This document shows positions 36,235 through 52,217 of a stretch of 64,000 bases of DNA, piece by piece. Origin of the DNA: Nitrosarchaeum sp. (GTDB taxonomy: Archaea; Thermoproteota; Nitrososphaeria; Nitrososphaerales; Nitrosopumilaceae); contig JAIOOR010000019.1 of the NCBI GenBank assembly GCA_021414365.1, positions 1-64,000 of the forward strand, read 5' to 3'. The stretch's first letter is position 1. Each line of letters begins with the position of its first letter. Made by a program: the position numbers and the translations under genes. The notes beneath the pieces were generated by a model, which ran no database searches, had not been told where the DNA came from, and saw nothing but the letters and a program-made list of their open reading frames with translations.

Positions 36235-36336
36235 TTAGGCGTTTTTTGATAATGGCAATTTAATATGCTGTTCTACACAATTAAGGCAAATCATCGCATC
36301 ATCCAAATGGCAATCACATAAGCAATTTTTACTCAT
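36235..36336 (-). CDS. CxCxCH-type Cys-rich micropeptide (33 aa)
   Basis: Starts MSKNCLCDCHLDDA and continues MICLNCVEQH. The CLCDCH motif recurs in peptides at 51065, 51609 and 51897. Six Cys/His ligands in 30 residues indicate a metal site. Lies between the two glycosyltransferase genes on the same strand. Confidence 0.55.
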   Translation of the reverse strand: MSKNCLCDCHLDDAMICLNCVEQHIKLPLSKNA

Positions 36337-51064: not shown

Positions 51065-51175
51065 TTAATCTATTCTATCTCTTAATTGATGACAATCACA
51101 AAGACAGCCTTTCTGGCATTTCATTCTTTTACAATCTGAACATGTTTTTTTATTCCAATAAGGCATAGTATTCAT
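51065..51175 (-). CDS. CxCxCH-type Cys-rich micropeptide (36 aa)
   Basis: Sequence contains TCSDCKRMKCQKGCLCDCHQ, i.e. C-x2-C-x4-C-x3-C-x-C-x-C-H. It begins 1 bp after the stop of the winged-helix-like gene at 51177 on the same strand, so it is probably its operon partner. Closest relative in this window is the peptide at 51609 (CLDCKNHRCITSSCQCSCH). Confidence 0.65.
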   Translation of the reverse strand: MNTMPYWNKKTCSDCKRMKCQKGCLCDCHQLRDRID

Positions 51176-51176
51176 T

Positions 51177-51527
51177 TTATTTTGATTTTTGTTTTCTATT
51201 CATCCTGAATTCTTGTGATTTCTGTCTTTTTCTTTGTTGTTCTAAATTCATAATCAGATATGTTTTTCCTGCTTCACATAACTTCATTTCGCCTGTAAAC
51301 TGATCATGCACTGATTCCAACGTGCCATCCATTAACAATCCTCCAACAATTTCCCATGCTTGGTCTTCTGGTATATCAAATTTGTACGAAAGTGTTGAAA
51401 CTTTAGTATAATAGCCGTTTTTTGAATTACGTAAAACAAAGTCTCTGATTTTATCTTCAGTTGTTTGGGTTTTTGGTTGTGATGATCTATTACCAAATCG
51501 TTTAAATGGTTTTCTGTTCTCTGACAT
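51177..51527 (-). CDS. Winged-helix-like hypothetical protein
   Basis: 116 aa. Basic disordered ends flank a compact domain with DFVLRNSKNGYYTKVSTLSYKFDIPEDQAWEIVGGLL (partly quoted), which reads as a winged helix (helix-turn-helix with DIPEDQAWEIV as recognition helix). Probably nucleic-acid binding. Upstream partner of the micropeptide at 51065. Confidence 0.6.
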   Translation of the reverse strand: MSENRKPFKRFGNRSSQPKTQTTEDKIRDFVLRNSKNGYYTKVSTLSYKFDIPEDQAWEIVGGLLMDGTLESVHDQFTGEMKLCEAGKTYLIMNLEQQRKRQKSQEFRMNRKQKSK

Positions 51528-51608
51528 TGTTCTTTTATGGTTTTGCTGGTATTTTAGGACTTGTAAGAATACCTAAAGGCTTTAGGAATCTACATGATAA
51601 TACATATC

Positions 51609-51737
51609 ATGAGTGAAAAGGCAAGAAGAATTGAGGAATTAAGAATGAAAACTGGAAGAAGTAAACGTTGTCTTGATTGTAAAAATCATCGATGTATAAC
51701 TTCAAGCTGTCAATGCAGTTGTCATTTGAAAAGCTAA
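51609..51737 (+). CDS. CxCxCH-type Cys-rich micropeptide (42 aa)
   Basis: N-terminal amphipathic helix (MSEKARRIEELRMKTGRS) followed by RCLDCKNHRCITSSCQCSCH and a four-residue tail. Seven Cys/His ligands in 19 residues. Same ligand order as the 51065 peptide, with one extra residue in the third gap, so a paralogue. Divergent from the 51527 gene. Confidence 0.65.
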   Translation: MSEKARRIEELRMKTGRSKRCLDCKNHRCITSSCQCSCHLKS

Positions 51738-51896
51738 CTGGTATCAGACCTACTCAGACCTGAATGATGATCTTCACTGCTCTAATCTGAGTGCGGTTGT
51801 GTGTATTTCCCAATCTTGCCAATTAGCAAAGTTTCTAATCTTAGCACTCCATAGAGGTCAAATTTTGATTTTAGATGATTTGTTCTAATTATATTC

Positions 51897-52019
51897 TCAA
51901 AAATATTTTGAATCCATTTTCTTTGCATCCATTGTGACGATTTTATGGCATTTACAAAAACAATTTGCATGAATCATATCATGATTGTTTCTATATTCAC
52001 ATTCTTTAGTGTGTTCCAT
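51897..52019 (-). CDS. CxCxCH-type micropeptide (40 aa)
   Basis: Begins MEHTKECEYRNNHDMIHA and then NCFCKCHKIV. The frame differs from the ORF-track entry 51782..51970, which has no recognisable feature. The FCKCH knuckle matches LCDCH and QCSCH in the other family members. Confidence 0.55.
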   Translation of the reverse strand: MEHTKECEYRNNHDMIHANCFCKCHKIVTMDAKKMDSKYF

Positions 52020-52160
52020 GTGATTTTTATTTTTACTTTTAATGCACTTAAAGATTAAGATTATTGATAGTATCTTAGATGGATTTTTGGTTAACTATAT
52101 AATAAATTAGTCTGAAATTATAAAAATAAAATTTGAAATAAAAAAATTTACTTCAATTAA

Positions 52161-52217
52161 CTATTTCTTTTTTGAAGCTTTTTTTGCTGCTGGTTTTTTT
52201 GCTGCTGCTTTTGCCAT
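52161..52217 (-). CDS. Lys/Ala-rich micropeptide (18 aa)
   Basis: MAKAAAKKPAAKKASKKK, nearly identical in composition to histone H1-type or Alba-like basic tails. A TATA-like gataaaac lies 20-26 bp upstream on the minus strand, implying a leaderless transcript. If translated it would bind nucleic acid non-specifically. Confidence is limited by its size. Confidence 0.5.
   Translation of the reverse strand: MAKAAAKKPAAKKASKKK

Follow-up and report, generated by a model that had tools for sequence, protein, structure and literature searches.

The locus raises the question of whether several very short open reading frames, each encoding a Cys-x-Cys-x-Cys-His (CxCxCH) knuckle, are real genes for one family of metal-binding micropeptides, and what such peptides would do in the cell. 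The four frames originally singled out (A, B, C and D) are present, with the sequences given for them, in the window, by which we mean the whole 64,000-nucleotide stretch of Nitrosarchaeum DNA that was analysed (Table 1). The corresponding DNA pattern, TGYNNNTGYNNNTGYCAY, has seven occurrences in the window where 0.12 would be expected, a count reached by none of 100 shuffles. Permuted motifs give 0–2 matches and lack the excess. ATG-started open reading frames of at least 25 aa that carry the motif number four, where first-order random sequence yields 0.03 on average, and the whole 1.88-Mb genome contains 24 pattern matches against none for the reversed pattern.

Table 1 Coordinates of the micropeptides and associated features in the window.
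Feature	Position	Strand	Sequence	Description
Peptide A	51065..51175	-	MNTMPYWNKKTCSDCKRMKCQKGCLCDCHQLRDRID	36 aa; C-x2-C-x4-C-x3-C-x-C-x-C-H
Gene directly upstream of A	51177..51527	-		116 aa; winged-helix-like by eye; homologues precede A elsewhere in Nitrosarchaeum (cluster k30)
Promoter-like element upstream of B	51571..51589	+	ACCTAAAG.CTTT..GAAT	Putative promoter of B; conserved across Nitrosarchaeum loci
Peptide B	51609..51737	+	MSEKARRIEELRMKTGRSKRCLDCKNHRCITSSCQCSCHLKS	42 aa; basic N-terminal helix followed by C-x2-C-x4-C-x4-C-x-C-x-C-H
Peptide C	51897..52019	-	MEHTKECEYRNNHDMIHANCFCKCHKIVTMDAKKMDSKYF	40 aa; H-x3-C-x9-H-x2-C-x-C-x-C-H
Promoter-like element upstream of C	52037..52053	-	CTTTAAGTG.AT.AAAA	Putative promoter of C; present in most Nitrosarchaeum copies
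Peptide D	36235..36336	-	MSKNCLCDCHLDDAMICLNCVEQHIKLPLSKNA	33 aa; CxCxCH-x6-CxxC-x3-H, reverse module order

Not every match encodes a peptide. Three of the seven in the window (19472, 49347 and 52200) are unconvincing as peptides, and counting all 24 genomic matches as genes was likewise rejected. On translation about eight convincing micropeptides are found in the genome: A–D, E (contig C2), F (C22), G (C26) and a start-less relative of A (C24). A very short Lys/Ala-rich frame of histone-tail-like composition, MAKAAAKKPAAKKASKKK (52165–52217, minus strand), explains one pattern match on the opposite strand. The micropeptides are single domains of 31–44 aa with a Cys content of 10–21%. Their supposed position below the usual limits of gene calling is doubtful, as the frames span approximately 100–130 nt and the minimum length of a common gene finder is 90 nt. 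The knuckle, described as terminal in the original prediction, lies at the C terminus of A and B, in the middle of C and at the N terminus of D (MSKNCLCDCH).

The A, B, C and D/E peptides are real genes in ammonia-oxidising archaea. The proposal that they are real, conserved and rich in metal ligands is strongly supported by (i) the reading frames of A, B and C, which are kept in sister genomes throughout the genus and partly throughout the family; (ii) pN/pS values of 0.126 (A), 0.154 (B) and 0.129 (C), with pN below pS in 420 of 421 pairs when the three are pooled, and codon changes that pile up at third positions (0.29–0.34 against 0.06–0.12); (iii) start and stop codons conserved alongside operon coupling; (iv) the gene order A, winged-helix-like gene, B, C, kept in several genomes and seen in seven A-bearing synteny loci; and (v) the motif Cys and His residues, every one of which is invariant in each alignment while the flanks vary. 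The outcome that the original prediction gave as its refutation, frames lost from sister genomes, did not occur for A, B or C. The invariant positions are C12, D14, C15, R17, C20, G23, C24, C26, D27, C28 and H29 in A (46 sequences) and H3, C7, Y9, R10, H17, C20, C22, C24 and H25 in C. In the Nitrosarchaeum layout B is divergent from the winged-helix-like gene and C is convergent on B. Relatives of B begin at the ATG equivalent to 51609, bearing out the earlier choice of start; a second in-frame ATG is found at 51594.

Within the genus, B and C each occur in 17 of 18 genomes, the exception for B being a genome that is 61% complete, and A or its A2 subtype, which is preceded by a conserved upstream element, in 16 of 18. 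Among 180 Nitrosopumilaceae genomes B is present in 46 and C in 64. Peptide A was found in 91 of 250 genomes of the class sample, 89 of them Nitrosopumilaceae and two giving marginal matches elsewhere. It is present in named Nitrosopumilus, Nitrosarchaeum and Nitrosotenuis records and also in two MAGs titled Nitrososphaeraceae, one of which (L241) shares a contig with a same-genus genome (G015:C51), so that its title is probably wrong.

In the window a single base (TAA-A-ATG) separates A from the preceding 116-aa gene, which has no significant Pfam match. In Nitrosopumilus A closes an operon in which a CBS-domain protein and then a membrane peptide precede it, and one base lies between the stop codon of the membrane peptide and the start codon of A in 27 of 29 loci. 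A gene for UspA (universal stress protein) is often divergent from the CBS gene near A in Nitrosopumilus. The intervening membrane peptide (MVVPIIVLVSIPIFLGIVYIPPYD...QRY; loci L167–L210) is itself conserved, approximately 73 aa long and single-pass, and is without a Pfam match. The neighbours of A vary between genera, which weakens assignment to a single pathway. Elsewhere in the genome that carries the window (G000), contig C24:13688-13774 (L131) holds an A-like sequence, FGDCKRMKYCKGCNCDCH, that lacks a usable start, has lost one cysteine and is probably a decaying paralogue.

Peptide D has a close copy in only one other genome (G008, 79% identity) and is a rare paralogue of E, MDMKKDPTELCSCKCHYGGAVSCPGCKNNHGIVCCHCKD, which lies outside the window in the same genome (contig C2:44206-44325; loci L115, L286). 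E is 37–40 aa long. The D/E profile matches 160 of 180 Nitrosopumilaceae genomes, 99 of the 105 high-quality ones and all 22 genera sampled, usually once per genome, and almost all of these matches are E. Its neighbours, named by reading their sequences, are fixed and comprise a BluB-like nitroreductase, an FMN-reductase-like protein, a membrane coiled-coil protein and a cyclophilin. Near-universal, mostly single-copy and set in a fixed gene order, E is a core micropeptide of Nitrosopumilaceae. One genome (G140, contig C3:36275-36496) carries two tandem E copies in one 82-aa open frame, possibly a fused duplicate.

Outside Nitrosopumilaceae the D/E profile is nearly absent, with three marginal matches. 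E-like frames, for example CECMCHGKPGIVDFCGYCTTSH, do occur in two genomes of another family of the same order (L337, L345 and L361 in G043; L340 in G057); they combine CxCxCH with a downstream CxxC...H, three of them are paralogues in one genome, and the wider origin of the peptides may therefore be older. The excess of CxCxCH matches in two genomes of this other family (f8) was set aside as largely TGCCAT repeats, although a few E-like peptides look real.

The claim of a single family is only partly right. Profile comparison shows A and B to be homologous (hhalign probability 94.8, E 5.4e-8, 24 columns). The alignments of A with C (probability 19%) and with D/E (80%) extend over 11 columns each and cover the knuckle only, and the comparison of B with C gives 16.8%. 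Furthermore, D and E place the knuckle first and CxxC-x3-H second, the other way round from A and B. The two modules, CxCxCH and CxxC-x3-[CH], are found in either order. A, B, C and D/E have seven conserved Cys/His ligands each, and a common metal-site logic across the peptides is likely.

That the peptides were uncatalogued holds for Pfam, NCBIfam and the PDB, and PHROG gave no convincing match. A–E and G have no Pfam match at E up to 10, no family in Pfam or NCBIfam matches CxCxCH peptides, and profile searches of the PDB with the peptides gave no meaningful match. The PHROG matches (D 0.0029, B 0.053) are weak and were not accepted as homology. The literature search found no paper that mentions 'CXCXCH' or deals with small ORFs of Nitrosopumilus. 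A possible exception to uncatalogued status is arCOG08677, 'Zn-ribbon domain containing protein', which is common in thaumarchaeal mobile and integrated elements (PMC6563490) and might, compared by description only, be A. It comes from the same archaeal phylum and is listed beside UspA and CBS arCOGs, and UspA and CBS genes also neighbour A. Peptide F (MICAACEQRKHYECIDCLKNHETHLCHCDCHDENTKPHPVDKPH, G000 contig C22:34039, L129) has seven Cys and seven His; its weak Pfam hits are zf-HIT (E 0.11) and DUF7129 (E 0.54) only, and assignment to zf-HIT (PF04438) was rejected at 12.8 bits against a cut-off of 24.7. In another genome (G060, L089) a CxCxCH-type N-terminus, MCCCCGCECHHWHH, is joined to a coiled-coil tail and is possibly an unrelated small-protein family.

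We propose, with rather more confidence than doubt, that these are lineage-specific regulatory micro-proteins that probably bind zinc. The window would hold four of at least seven CxCxCH micropeptides in a Nitrosarchaeum genome. The peptides would be translated and remain in the cytosol, as no secretion signal was seen by eye, and the seven conserved Cys/His residues in each of A–E would fold round one or two metal ions, with zinc the likeliest. With seven ligands, two tetrahedral metals could share a single thiolate. The peptides would most likely serve as small adaptors in regulation, binding nucleic acid or a partner protein. A, which in Nitrosopumilus is translationally coupled with a CBS-domain protein of adenylate-sensing type and a membrane peptide, may act in stress and energy sensing. 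Both A and B are strongly basic, B adding a basic helix, and this charge together with the conserved non-Cys residues (DCKR, GRSKRC, RDR) suggests a surface for specific binding more than a sink for metal. In C and D/E the basic charge is weak or absent, which counts against the regulatory reading. AlphaFold models of A (46 sequences; pLDDT 59, pTM 0.23) and B (5 sequences; pLDDT 71, pTM 0.40) are too weak for metal geometry to be interpreted; the B model has a predicted helix at residues 3–15 with pLDDT near 80, and Foldseek found no fold match for it.

Small zinc-finger proteins of haloarchaea offer the nearest precedent for regulatory micro-proteins of this kind. The C(P)XCG micro-proteins, such as HVO_2753 and HVO_0758 (PMC6562870, PMC10716476), are likewise archaeal stand-alone single domains of fewer than 70 aa with Cys pairs and many paralogues per genome, and deletion of several alters stress adaptation, biofilm formation or swarming (PMC6562870, PMC10716476). 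The present peptides differ in combining CxCxCH with CxxC-x3-[CH], in having seven ligands and in being limited to ammonia-oxidising archaea. C(P)XCG motifs are absent from A, B, C, D and G, and E comes closest with CPGCK, where K replaces G; lacking the defining motif, the peptides would at most work alike and are not members of that group. Four of the 10 C(P)XCG proteins characterised did not bind zinc despite prediction (PMC10716476), so that inference of metal from motif can fail. Brz of Halobacterium salinarum, a small zinc-finger regulator of bop transcription (PMC2253796), is a tiny archaeal peptide beside other genes that regulates its neighbours, and provides a working analogy for A. 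Unlike A, Brz is of the CPxCG type and has one described target gene; A is likened to it by analogy, not by sequence.

The main rival is a role in metal storage or delivery, in which the thiol clusters would act as metallothionein-like buffers or Cu(I)/Zn chaperones and might, for instance, supply copper to the copper-rich machinery of ammonia oxidation. We consider this unlikely, though it keeps a real share of the probability. Metallothioneins, bacterial and eukaryotic, are small and Cys-rich with CxC motifs, and His is among the ligands in bacterial forms. The CxCxC thiol density and the Cys share of 13–21% fit such a role for the micropeptides; their hosts depend on copper to oxidise ammonia, and in Nitrososphaera copper limitation upregulates a Cys-rich copper-storage protein (PMC7785015). 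In contrast to metallothioneins, the peptides have a lower Cys content, conserve basic and aromatic residues (Trp or Tyr in A; the invariant Tyr9 of C) and keep their spacing exactly, and no metallothionein family model in Pfam matches them. The translational coupling of A is to the CBS and membrane-peptide operon rather than to copper genes, none of which is found among the conserved neighbours of A or E.

It is considerably less probable that the peptides are antitoxin-like or belong to mobile elements or defence, spreading together with mobile DNA. Copy number is variable, with up to six A-type matches in a single genome of the class sample, and UspA, CBS and Zn-ribbon arCOGs rank with the genes most often carried by thaumarchaeal integrated elements (PMC6563490). 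However, the near-universal, mostly single-copy E with its fixed gene order argues against such spread, as does the finding of no integrase as a conserved neighbour; most loci suggest that E and A lie outside integrated elements. Viral contigs gave 67 pattern matches for A with no confirmed relative, and tblastn of phage records with B, D and E returned nothing or E-values of at least 2. That the peptides are chance frames or conserved RNA/DNA elements resembling peptides is scarcely credible, since, common as short frames are in AT-rich DNA and despite several genomic motif matches that are not peptides, it is contradicted by the codon-level pattern and by conserved start codons, stop codons and operon coupling.

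The CxCxCH peptides could possibly, and we say so tentatively, constitute a set of metal-binding micro-proteins that spans the lineage of ammonia-oxidising archaea and was previously undescribed. E would be a core protein of Nitrosopumilaceae, with related E-like peptides in Nitrososphaeraceae-like genomes, and the metal site, binuclear and with seven ligands, would be of a kind unseen in known small zinc fingers. Real small genes are missed by the common family libraries. Few archaea are as abundant as the Nitrosopumilaceae, which drive nitrification in the sea, and much of their core gene content is unexplained. E, which hardly any genome of the family lacks, and A, coupled within a CBS/stress operon, are short, synthesisable targets for work on metal binding and expression.
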